A DNA stretch of 64,000 nucleotides from Trigonopsis variabilis (taxonomy: Eukaryota; Ascomycota; Trigonopsidomycetes; Trigonopsidales; Trigonopsidaceae): assembly GCA_003707065.3 (NCBI GenBank), contig PPXM03000008.1, positions 372,001 through 436,000 of the forward strand, read 5' to 3'. The notes below the pieces were generated by a model, which was given only the letters and a program-made list of their open reading frames with translations, was not told the DNA's origin and did not search any database. Shown piece after piece: positions 1,487 through 45,444 of the stretch (the first letter of the stretch is position 1; each line of letters opens with the position of its first letter). The translations under genes and the position numbers were made by a program.

Positions 1487-3054
1487 ATGACGCAGGTAAG
1501 TGATTGATGAGTGCGAAGAGCTTTTTCTCACCAATTTAGCCGATTCTTCAGCCGTCTTTTGAAGTGATCAAGGAAGCTCTGAGTGAGCAGGTCAATGGCA
1601 AGCGACCAAACTTGGTTCCTGTGTTTGCTTTCATTCCCGCTGATTCTCTTACTCCGGCATCTGCTTACTTAAAGCTAACGGGAGCTAAAAGTGGATATTC
1701 ATTTCTATTCGAAAGTACTTATCAGGGTGAGATGGTTGGCCGATACTCGGTTCTGGGTGTGAAACCTCGAAAGGTCTTCAAGACCGGCAATGGAGCAGGA
1801 CCTGATGTTGATCCTTTGCAGGTCCTCGAAAAAGAGCTTGATCAGTATCGACCGGCTGACATTCTTGGGATTCCCAACTTATCAGGTGGTGCGGTTGGGT
1901 ATGTTGCCTACGATTGTATAAAATACTTTGAGCCTCGAACTGCTAGGCCGTTAACAGATCCACTAGGAATTCCTGAGAGTGTCATGATGCTTTTTGATAC
2001 AGTGGTTGCTTTCGATCATGTCTATCAGAAAATCCAGGTGATCACCAACGTTTTTGTAGACGAGGACGAGATATCAGATGAGAAGCTAAAAGGGTTATTA
2101 AGTGAGGCCGATTCAGACATTCAACAAGTCATTGCTATTTTGAAATCCGATCATACTCCTCAATTCGAGCAGCCACCGATATCAGTTGATGAGCCGAGAG
2201 AGTATAAGTCGAATATCGGCCAGGAGGGTTATGAGAATCATGTCCGTCAATTAAAAAAGCATATTCTCAAGGGTGATATTTTTCAGGCGGTGCCATCTCA
2301 GCGGTTGGCGAGAAAAACTGACCTTCATCCTTTTAATGTTTATCGCCATCTCCGGAGTGTCAACCCGTCTCCATATCTCTTTTACATCGATTATATCTCA
2401 TTCCAGGTGGTCGGCGCCAGTCCAGAGCTTCTTGTCAAAGTCGATGGCAAAGGAAAAGTTATTACTCATCCGATAGCGGGGACGGTTAAGCGAGGTAAAA
2501 CGACAGAAGAGGATGATGCGCTAGCTCAGGAGCTTCTCTCCTCTCTCAAAGACCGGGCCGAGCATGTTATGTTGGTGGATCTAGCTAGGAATGATATCAA
2601 CCGTGTCTGTGATCCATTGACGACTAATGTTGATCGCCTGATGGTCATCGAACGGTTCAGTCACGTCATGCATTTGACATCACAGGTATCTGGTACCCTA
2701 CGAGAAGGCAAGACTCGCTTTGATGCCTTCAGGTCCATCTTTCCTGCCGGAACGGTGTCTGGCGCCCCCAAGGTTAGAGCCATGGAGTTGGTAAGTGAGC
2801 TTGAAGGTGAACGGAGAGGCGTTTATGCTGGAGCAGTTGGACACTGGGGTTATGACAAATGTTCAATGGATACATGTATAGCTCTTCGAACGATGGTCTT
2901 CAAGGACGGAACCGCATATTTGCAGGCGGGCGGAGGAATTGTTTATGATTCAGATCCCTACGATGAATATATCGAGACCCTCAATAAACTGGGAGCCAAC
3001 ATGAAATGTATAACAGAGGCTGAGAATCTCTACGCCTCGGGACTTTTGAATTGA
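1487..3054 (+). CDS. TRP2: Anthranilate synthase component I
   Basis: Exons are 1487-1495 and 1540-3054, with a 44-nt intron (GTAAGT to TTTAG). The first exon encodes only Met-Thr-Gln, and the spliced product is 507 aa, the same length as S. cerevisiae Trp2. The body reading frame has no ATG near its start, so the split start is needed; it restores the expected N-terminus ILQPSFEVIKEAL. The N-terminal regulatory half includes FLFESTYQGEMVGRYS. The chorismate-binding half carries ITHPIAGTVKRGKT, EHVMLVDLARND, GTVSGAPKVRAMELV and QAGGGIVYDSDP. The enzyme makes anthranilate from chorismate with the glutaminase Trp3 in the cytosol. It is about 5 kb from TRP5, and a Gcn4-type site lies just upstream. 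Confidence 0.97.
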
Positions 3055-3241
3055 ACTGTAAAAATGAGATATACTATCACTGTTTTGCGTAGCAGCATTC
3101 TGCACAGTTTAATTTCCGCAGCACGCAGAATAACAATAGAGCTAAGGCCTGTTCCTATGCAAGCAAACTCAATCGTACAGAGTTGAATGTCTTTGTCTCT
3201 GGGCTGTATCGCTGTGGGATGTCTACACATGCTCTTGGGCA

Positions 3242-4056
3242 ATGACTGCAACCGATATTCAAACGACTCCAATGTCGTCCATACCCAAGTTAACTTTTCC
3301 CGAGCCTGCTCAGATAAAACCACGAGTAAGATCACCTCTAGCGCAAGGTCTGCGAACGCTCTTACTTTGCGTGTATATCTATGGAGGAGCCTCTGCACTG
3401 TTGTACTTGGTGTCGATGCTGGTCATTCAGCCACTTCGAAATCAACTAATAAAGGACCGGGAGAGTTATTGTTTACGAGCTCTTGAATTAATTCGAGGAG
3501 CTAATAATAAACTATCGAAGATAGTGACCAAAGTTCCCGAGGTATCGATAAAGCCTTCGCCTAGAAATAGTAGAGTGAAGGAGATTTTCAAGAGTGTTGG
3601 GGTGCAAACGCAAGAGCCCGAAACATTGGCAGGGACGTTTGATAATGGTTATACATATACGGATGGATATACCATGGAGTGGGCACCTACCAGTCGGCAC
3701 TTGAGTGCTCAGAAACTGCAGCAGTTAGCTTACAATATGAGTTTATTGAATGATGAAATGACCAAAGAGGAGGATAATGCTGATAGTTCTGATGTGGGGG
3801 ACTCGCTAAAAGAGATTAGAATCTACTTGGAGCAGCCGATGTTCGTCAATTCTCCAAGATACGGCGGTAATCGACCTGAATATTTCAGCGATGGACAACA
3901 GGATCCCGTTTCTGGTGAAGGAAAAGCCTTAAAAGACATTCAGTCAGAAATCAAAGTCCTAAAAGGACAATTGTTGAGTTTGTATGTGTCTTTTACTCTG
4001 AATTGGAGCTAACGATTAGTCGAAATTTCCCTCGCCCGTCATATGACAAAAATTAA
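3242..4056 (+). CDS. Pex17-like peroxisomal membrane protein (tentative)
   Basis: Exons are 3242-3981 and 4020-4056. The 38-nt intron has donor GTATGT and branch GCTAAC followed by GATTAG; splicing replaces a premature end with a tail ending RNFPRPSYDKN, giving 258 aa. A hydrophobic segment (about residues 43-62, VYIYGGASALLYLVSMLVI) follows a short polar N-terminus. It is followed by a helical region rich in L, N and K (RALELIRGANNKLSKIVTKV), a polar middle and a final helix before the tail. This resembles fungal Pex17 and Pex14/17-type peroxins, which join the docking complex for PTS1 receptor import. Sequence similarity in that family is low, so it could also be another single-pass membrane protein. 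Confidence 0.5.
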
Positions 4057-42777: not shown

Positions 42778-44603
42778 ATGGTGGCCCCTTCAGTACTTGA
42801 TTGTTCTAAAGCTTTGGAATACTTGAACGAATACAAAGAAAAAGATGGTATTGATGTCCACACTCTTATGAATTCCAAGACCAACGGTGGTCTGACTTAT
42901 AACGACTTTTTGCTTCTTCCAGGAAAAGTTGGTACGTGAGGGCACACAAAGAGGTGGCTAATATACAAGAGTTTGATGCGAATTCAGTCAGCCTTGAAAG
43001 CAAAGTCACAAAGCGGATTACTTTGAAGACTCCGTTTTTGTCTTCGCCCATGGATACCGTGACTGAGACTGATATGGCTATTCATATGGCTGTAAGTAGT
43101 GTGTGTCATTGAGCTTTCTCACATTTTCAAGCTTCTCGGTGGATTGGGGATCATCCATCACAACTGTTCTCCCGAGGAGCAAGCGGAGATGGTGCGAAAA
43201 GTCAAGAAATACGAGAATGGGTTTATCACCGATCCTGTCTGTGTCAAGCCCTCTGCTACTGTTGGAGAGATCAAGGGTCTTCAGAAGCACCTAGGATTCT
43301 CTGGATTTCCTGTCACTGGTAAGTCGCTAGTGATGTACAATCGCCAGACAAGGATATGATGCTACTTTTTTATTTATTAACTTTCGTTCTACTGATGTGG
43401 CGTAACGGCCTTGTGGAAACCTAATTTGACTGATCCTGTTTCTGTGTGAAGATTGCATCTTGCATTACAAGATTGACTAACGCTTCAGATACCGGCAAGA
43501 TCTCTGGCAAACTCCTTGGCATTATCACTTCTCGAGATGTCCAGTTTGTTGAAGATGACAGCACTCTTGTCTCGGAAGTCATGACTGCCGAGATGTTGAC
43601 TGCTCACTCCGGCATCTCCCTCACTGAGGCCAATGACATCCTTCGCAAGTCCAAAAAGGGCAAACTGCCCATTGTCGATTCTGAAGGTCACCTCACTGCC
43701 TTGCTTTCGCGAACTGATCTTAAAAAGAATCTCAATTTCCCATTGGCTAGCAAACTGCCTCAATCTAAGCAGCTCCTTTGTGGTGCAGCCATTGGAACCC
43801 GTCCTGCTGATAAAGAGCGTCTGCGTCTCTTGTCTGACGCCGGTCTTGACGTTGTTGTGATTGACTCTTCTCAGGGCAACTCCATCTACCAGCTCGAGAT
43901 GCTCCAGTGGATCAAGACTGAGCTTCCTCACCTTGAAGTCATTGCTGGTAACGTCGTGACCAGAGAACAGGCTGCCAGTTTAATTGCTGCTGGCGCTGAT
44001 GGCCTTCGAATTGGTATGGGTAGCGGAAGTATCTGTATCACTCAAGAAGTTATGGCTGTCGGCAGACCTCAAGGTACCGCCGTCTATTCGGTCTCGGCCT
44101 TTGCTCGTCGTTTTGGCGTCCCTACCATTGCTGACGGTGGCATTGGCAACGTCGGTCACATCACTAAAGCCCTTGCTCTCGGCGCCTCGGCAGTCATGAT
44201 GGGCGGTCTCTTGGCCGGCACTTCAGAGTCTCCTGGTAGCTATTTCTACCGAGACGGACAGCGAGTCAAAGCCTATCGAGGAATGGGCTCGATCGACGCC
44301 ATGGAGCGAACTGGCAACAACGATAATGCTGCCACTTCTCGTTACTTTTCTGAGGAGGACAAGGTCCTTGTTGCCCAAGGTGTGTCTGGCTCGGTTATTG
44401 ATAAGGGTTCCATCACCAAATTCATCCCCTATCTCATGACCGGCTTGCAACACGGGCTCCAGGATATCGGCGTGCGAAGCGTGAACGACTTGCGCGAGAA
44501 AACTGCCTCTGGAGAGGTTCGATTCGAACTTCGTACTGCCTCTGCCCAACTCGAAGGCGGCGTCCACGGTCTCTTCTCGTACGAGAAGCGTCTCTATAAC
44601 TAA
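42778..44603 (+). CDS. IMD: Inosine-5'-monophosphate dehydrogenase
   Basis: Four exons, 42778-42931, 42970-43091, 43132-43318 and 43489-44603, give 525 aa. Introns are 38, 40 and 170 nt; the last contains an snoRNA. Blocks are [52 protein letters not shown], and a CBS pair (about 165-225, [20 protein letters not shown]). The active-site loop [13 protein letters not shown] carries the catalytic cysteine near residue 336, and [14 protein letters not shown] follows. The enzyme converts IMP to XMP with NAD+, the committed step to GTP. It has no paralogue in this window. The start is divergent from IQG1, with 209 bp between. Confidence 0.98.
43345..43444 (+). ncRNA. snR54: Intronic box C/D snoRNA, snR54-like (18S rRNA methylation guide)
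   Basis: It lies in the 170-nt third intron of the IMP dehydrogenase gene. Box C-like ATGATGC is at 43356-43362 and box D CTGA at 43430-43433, 78 nt apart. Flanking stem halves pair: CAGA (43345-43348) with TCTG (43441-43444), and AGGA (43351-43354) with TCCT (43434-43437). An internal D' CTGA (43392-43395) follows TAACTTTCGTTCT (43378-43390), which is complementary over 13 nt to the conserved 18S segment AGAACGAAAGTTA. By the D+5 rule it targets the second A of GAA, as snR54 does at A974 in yeast. S. cerevisiae snR54 also resides in an IMD gene intron (IMD4). Confidence 0.85.
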
Positions 44604-44840: not shown

Positions 44841-45444
44841 CTACTCATCGTCGGAGGCCAAGGTCTGAGCAGCAATTCGGTCAAGATCCCGTTGGCCGTT
44901 CTCGGTGATCTTTCGGCCACCGTTGGGTGATTCCTCGAGGATACCAATCTTCTCAAGGGCCTGGACGACCTTTCGGTTGACTGATCCAGAGGCATCTTTG
45001 TGGTGAGAGGGTCGGGTGCCCCGGTTCTTGGCGCCACCGTAAAGTTTGTTGAGCTTGCCAATACCAACTTGTTTTCGGAGATAGATGTGTCGGGCGATAG
45101 AGGCAGCGCGGTAGTACCACCAGTTGTCGGAATCCTGGGGAGGAAGTTCATTGCCGGCTGAGGTCTTGACGAGCTCGACATAACCGGGAACAGGGAGTTT
45201 ACCTGCGAGTTAGACGATGAAGGAGAAACAGCGTGGCATGGAATAGCGGCAGGGATAAAATCAGATACCCAGTCCTGGCGATATAAGTGAATTCAGACCA
45301 AGTCAAATCACTCTTCTTTATATCGACAGCCATCCGTCTAATACCACGATTGAACCAAAATAACATACCCTGTCGCTTTAAGAACTCGGCATAAGCTTTG
45401 ATGAAAGTTTGAGCATCAACGTCTCTAACGCTATAGCCGACCAT
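44841..45444 (-). CDS. RPS19: Ribosomal protein eS19 (S19)
   Basis: Exons are 45444-45369 and 45202-44841, with a 166-nt intron; the product is 145 aa (yeast 144). The spliced N-terminus is MVGYSVRDVDAQTFIKAYAE, then FLKRQGKLPVPGYVELVKTS. Later blocks are WWYYRAASIARHIYLRKQVG, GKLNKLYGGAKNRGTRPSHH and ITENGQRDLDRIAAQTLASD. S19 is needed for 40S head assembly. The intron is one of the long class and contains an 8-bp perfect inverted repeat (45279-45286 with 45318-45325). A CACGTG box lies at 45511-45516, about 67 bp upstream of the start. Confidence 0.99.

Follow-up and report, generated by a model that had tools for sequence, protein, structure and literature searches.

A predicted snR54-type box C/D snoRNA in the third intron of the IMP dehydrogenase gene of Trigonopsis variabilis

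The third intron of the IMP dehydrogenase (IMPDH) gene of the budding yeast Trigonopsis variabilis raises two questions, namely whether it encodes a snoRNA of the snR54 family, and whether such a guest and its host intron were inherited together from an ancestor shared with Saccharomyces cerevisiae. We examined the window, by which we mean the whole 64-kb stretch of T. variabilis DNA that was analysed, and extended selected searches to the assembly of 15 contigs (11.35 Mb). On the first question, intron 3 very probably encodes an snR54 (U59-type) box C/D snoRNA, which is predicted from its sequence to guide 2'-O-methylation of the equivalent of A974 in 18S rRNA. The features on which both answers draw are collected in Table 1.

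Table 1. Coordinates of the IMPDH gene, the predicted snoRNA and other features of the window
Feature	Position	Strand	Details
IMPDH gene	42778..44603	+	4 exons, 525 aa; spliced frame open
IMPDH intron 1	42932-42969	+	38 nt
IMPDH intron 2	43092-43131	+	40 nt
IMPDH intron 3, candidate snoRNA host	43319..43488	+	170 nt, phase 1, codon 155
Terminal stem, 5' side (CAGA and AGGA segments)	43345..43354	+	predicted duplex with 43434-43444
Predicted snR54 C/D snoRNA (Rfam RF00473)	43352..43435	+	50.7 bits; model positions 1-87 of 87
Candidate box C, ATGATGC	43356..43362	+	sequence
D' guide, TAACTTTCGTTCT	43378..43390	+	13 Watson-Crick pairs to 18S AGAACGAAAGTTA
Box D', CTGA	43392..43395	+	sequence
Box D, CTGA	43430..43433	+	sequence
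Terminal stem, 3' side	43434..43444	+	predicted duplex with 43345-43354
GACTAAC, probable branch point of intron 3	43475..43481	+	sequence; 7 nt upstream of the CAG end
13-nt 18S complement	CTGA 43874	minus	antisense inside the IMPDH coding sequence
13-nt 18S complement	3943-3947 (CTGA 3943)	minus	two bases before CTGA; second CTGA follows
RPS19 intron	45203-45368	minus	166 nt; CTAAC branch-like motif near the acceptor

The host gene and its third intron

Once introns 1-3 are taken out, the IMPDH frame runs uninterrupted from the ATG at 42778 to the stop codon at 44601-44603. The interval 43319-43488, which a sequence-only reading of this DNA had described as a long IMPDH intron, coincides exactly with intron 3, and its bounds are made exact by the intact 525-aa frame. 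Intron 3 has a GTAAGT donor, a GACTAAC element and a CAG acceptor, and the reading frame is continuous across it. The same GACTAAC motif is named as the branch site of a Candida snoRNA intron in a passage of earlier work. In a protein search, the best-scoring relative of the T. variabilis IMPDH was that of Tortispora caseinolytica (77% identity, 99% coverage, E 8.6e-268), with those of Lipomycetaceae-type and other budding yeasts coming next. When the exons were scanned as separate pieces, exons 3 and 4 matched NCBIfam TIGR01302, IMP dehydrogenase, with the exon-4 piece scoring 456.8 bits, below the cut-off of 481.5 that is set for the whole protein. The gene model and the homology together place the candidate snoRNA in an IMPDH intron, as in the known snR54-IMPDH pair.

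Two further observations were made here. A six-bp hairpin (ATCTTG/CAAGAT) occupies 43457-43473, directly ahead of the probable intron 3 branch point, although the 55-nt 3' tail of the intron shows no folding advantage over shuffled sequence. Elsewhere in the window, a Bax-inhibitor-like protein is without a near relative, the best matches listed for it having 43-50% identity.

Family assignment, boxes and predicted processing

The snR54 model RF00473 matched the window with 50.7 bits against a curated cut-off of 50 (E 0.00057, calculated over 64 kb and 4227 families), and this was the sole match above any curated Rfam cut-off in the window. At looser Rfam thresholds, intron 3 alone gave other matches that lie far below their own cut-offs. 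A second search method, applied to all 15 contigs with RF00473, returned a single place at E <= 0.001, that in intron 3, where the alignment covered model positions 4-86 with an E-value of 7.0e-9 and a score of 38.3 bits, which is under the cut-off. With a margin of 0.7 bit in the window and 38.3 bits genome-wide, the family call is solid rather than high-scoring; the covariance-model check nevertheless bears out the snR54-like identity that had been proposed for this intron.

A candidate box C/D snoRNA should be judged against its class, whose members are stable small RNAs bound by Snu13, Nop56, Nop58 and Nop1, and whose box C has the consensus RUGAUGA. The intron 3 sequence has boxes C and D with a terminal stem, and departs from this pattern at the last base of box C, where C stands in place of A. 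The sequence-only reading had reported boxes C and D 78 nt apart, a terminal stem made of two parts, and a D' guide with 13 nt of complementarity to 18S, and all three were recovered: the distance is 78 nt when counted from the first base of C to the last base of D; the stem would form from CAGA/UCUG and AGGA/UCCU at -8.1 kcal/mol; and the guide TAACTTTCGTTCT lies at 43378-43390, ending one base ahead of box D'. Stems as stable as -8.1 kcal/mol were found in 54 of 4162 random pairs within intron 3 and in 151 of 5000 window pairs of equal spacing, so that the terminal stem alone lends modest support. No canonical C' box was identified in the candidate, and in the relevant passage of PMC8413462 the C'/D' motif of yeast snR54 is likewise described as non-canonical and without Snu13 binding.

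The borderline Rfam score and the off-consensus base of box C are also what would be expected if intron 3 kept a decayed or silent copy, i.e., an snR54-like sequence that is left unprocessed while another gene supplies the guide. However, the genome holds no second RF00473 match at E <= 0.001, and the guide and the D' and D boxes are intact in the intron 3 copy. We therefore consider a decayed copy quite improbable, and a functional snoRNA gene remains the preferred reading.

For such a gene, the pathway of intronic snoRNAs (splicing, debranching and exonucleolytic trimming) most likely applies; the guide, the boxes and the geometry of the target are read from sequence, and the remaining steps are extrapolated from the family. 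The IMPDH pre-mRNA would be spliced, after which the debranching enzyme would open the intron 3 lariat. Exonucleases would then trim the opened lariat to a snoRNP shielded by the C/D k-turn and the terminal stem. Finally, the D' guide would pair with 18S, and fibrillarin (Nop1) would be expected to methylate the 2'-O of the equivalent of yeast A974. Processing of intronic snoRNAs by debranching and exonucleases is described in the part of PMC5033589 that deals with it.

The 18S target and tests against chance

The predicted pairing was assessed on eight records (L006-L013) that contain eukaryotic rDNA inside prokaryote genome records, evidently as contamination. Since these records were picked by the 18S segment AGAACGAAAGTTA itself, they are uninformative on how universal that segment is. 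In seven of them the D' guide forms 13 Watson-Crick pairs and one G-U pair with 18S, and the eighth (L008) ends shortly beyond the segment and is not scorable. In L013, whose 18S is 1,800 nt long by its Rfam bounds (2050-3849), the base facing D'+5 is A974, which we take to be the 18S target (Am974) of yeast snR54. The earlier assertion that D+5 points to the adenosine methylated by snR54 is thereby corroborated, with the 18S of another organism as the template. In a table of PMC3511168 the target is printed as Am975 for both yeast snR54 and Arabidopsis, and as Am1031 for human U59. As a separate observation, L013 is a Planomonospora record, and its 5S lies on the strand opposite 18S, as in yeasts.

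The T. variabilis assembly contains no forward copy of AGAACGAAAGTTA in its 15 contigs, which suggests that rDNA may be absent from it. The one reverse match is the snoRNA itself, and a control pattern read backwards gave 1 and 3 matches.

Is a guide of this kind likely to arise by chance in an intron that carries no snoRNA at all? In favour of such a resemblance, the window has further 13-nt rRNA complements that precede a CTGA, and intron 3 does not fold better than its shuffled versions, either as a whole (z -0.27) or in its 55-nt tail (z 0.13). On each strand we looked for 18S complements whose end lies 0-2 nt ahead of a CTGA and which are flanked by an upstream TGATG and a second, downstream CTGA. 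A 13-nt complement with both boxes was found at one place in the window, the intron 3 locus, and nowhere in 60 random sequences, each of 128 kb, drawn from a first-order Markov model. Sites with the guide only, at 13 nt, numbered three in the window and three in all 60 Markov sequences together. At shorter lengths the Markov sequences gave 16 guide-only sites of 12 nt and 61 of 11 nt, neither set including a site with both boxes, and 257 sites of 10 nt, three of which carried both. None of the random sequences thus brings a 13-nt guide together with the C, D' and D boxes in the correct spacing, and the covariance-model E-value, which already accounts for the window length and the number of families, points the same way. 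These results make chance resemblance an extremely improbable account of the intron 3 locus.

The two other 13-nt complements in the window (Table 1) were rejected as snoRNAs, having no Rfam match above cut-off and no TGATG within 45 nt upstream; the one at 3943-3947 is probably a product of chance. The guide with the D' pattern was also found at three loci in viral contigs, which we regard as chance resemblances because none reaches an Rfam cut-off. A search of the viral contigs for the 18S segment found no match.

The D guide was compared with the same eight rDNA records, among which a near-complete LSU is present in L010 only, so that LSU coverage is poor. The longest unbroken Watson-Crick run was 10 nt, in the LSU of L010 only. 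With no more than one mismatch and two G-U pairs tolerated over guide positions 2-12, a search of four of the eight records found no site, and 100 of 300 shuffled D guides found at least one such site in the L010 LSU. At this LSU coverage, an LSU target like that described for Neurospora is not supported, and no convincing rRNA target for the D guide emerged. Taken together, and as far as the sequence allows, the first reading is supported in the snoRNA family and the host gene that it named, and in its boxes, its guide and its target base.

Age of the host-guest pair and length of the intron

Intron 3 lies in phase 1 in the codon following FPVT, i.e., FPVT(D/E). An alignment to eight IMPDHs, gap-free ahead of the intron site except at the N-terminus, puts the site opposite nt 460 in the frame that encodes a 524-aa S. 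cerevisiae IMPDH. Exon 1 of S. cerevisiae IMD4 is, we presume, 460 nt long; if so, the two introns share position and phase, and a single intron inherited together with its guest is favoured. The IMD4 intron is 408 nt long, against 170 nt for the host intron of T. variabilis. A passage of PMC4937481 describes it as 'the only intron' of its gene, whereas the T. variabilis IMPDH has two extra introns, 38 and 40 nt long.

The proposal that S. cerevisiae snR54 also resides in an IMD gene intron is borne out for IMD4 by the passages of PMC4937481 and PMC10592967 that name it, and an excerpt of PMC5393171 likewise states that IMD4 holds an intronic snoRNA. The S. cerevisiae and T. variabilis loci share the Rfam model, the D' guide, the base that is targeted and an IMPDH gene as host. 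Beyond PMC4937481, we found no literature on the IMD4 intron site. A table in the same paper gives the distribution of snR54 as 'Saccharomycetales and Diptera'. A study that followed eight intronic snoRNAs across the Saccharomycetaceae (PMC4202332) contains neither 'snR54' nor 'IMD' in its main text. Our literature search returned no paper on the T. variabilis snR54 locus, from which we do not claim that it is absent from print.

Related snoRNAs are described from other organisms. Candida parapsilosis snR54 is also intronic, in a protein-coding gene that the source passage leaves unnamed. Like the T. variabilis candidate, Neurospora crassa CD49 is intronic and has a 13-nt D' guide for 18S, there listed for Am971; it differs in an additional 12-nt D guide for 26S-Um2682 (PMC2780460). 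The table of PMC3511168 gives vertebrate U59 (SNORD59) and plant snoR59 as the counterpart family, aimed at the same 18S adenosine, and places the origin of the snR54/U59/snoR59 family in the last eukaryotic common ancestor. The chicken homologue of U59/snR54, in contrast to the present case, resides in intron 2 of ATP5B, and the snR54-IMPDH pairing is thus not general in eukaryotes.

That snoRNAs switch hosts, as the chicken homologue illustrates, and that snoRNA relocation in fungi is described in parts of the literature, leave room for a separate entry of snR54 into IMPDH in the T. variabilis and S. cerevisiae lineages. The phase-1 site at nt 460 argues against this, as it agrees with the presumed IMD4 site, and we consider two separate entries unlikely. 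On that presumption, sequence comparison would favour one host-guest arrangement kept from a common ancestor. The stronger proposal is that the FPVT intron and its snR54 guest have been inherited as one unit since the budding-yeast common ancestor; while introns were being lost on a large scale, this one position would have survived because its guest is sufficiently essential to shield it. In our estimation this proposal has an even chance of being correct.

An snR54 in an IMPDH intron of T. variabilis would be a further example of a known host-guest pair, and it looks like a real, expected and ordinary feature. It would extend the pairing to a lineage for which the protein search shows no closely related sequenced species, the highest IMPDH identity being 78% among the 120 matches listed, and the snR54 annotation supplied here is of a sort missed by gene finders. 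The locus also offers a test case for the shielding of introns from loss by intronic snoRNAs, a protection that has already been argued for fungal NOG2 and RPL7 introns in passages of previous work.

The first reading had further taken the snoRNA as the explanation for the length of intron 3. This fits the contrast with the short introns 1 and 2 of the same gene, but it is at odds with RPS19, 600 bases downstream of IMPDH, whose 166-nt intron has no Rfam match at E <= 1. Long introns at this locus evidently need no snoRNA, and the guest is a weak explanation for the length of intron 3. The RPS19 intron also contains an inverted repeat, CGATATAA / TTATATCG, which was spotted by eye.
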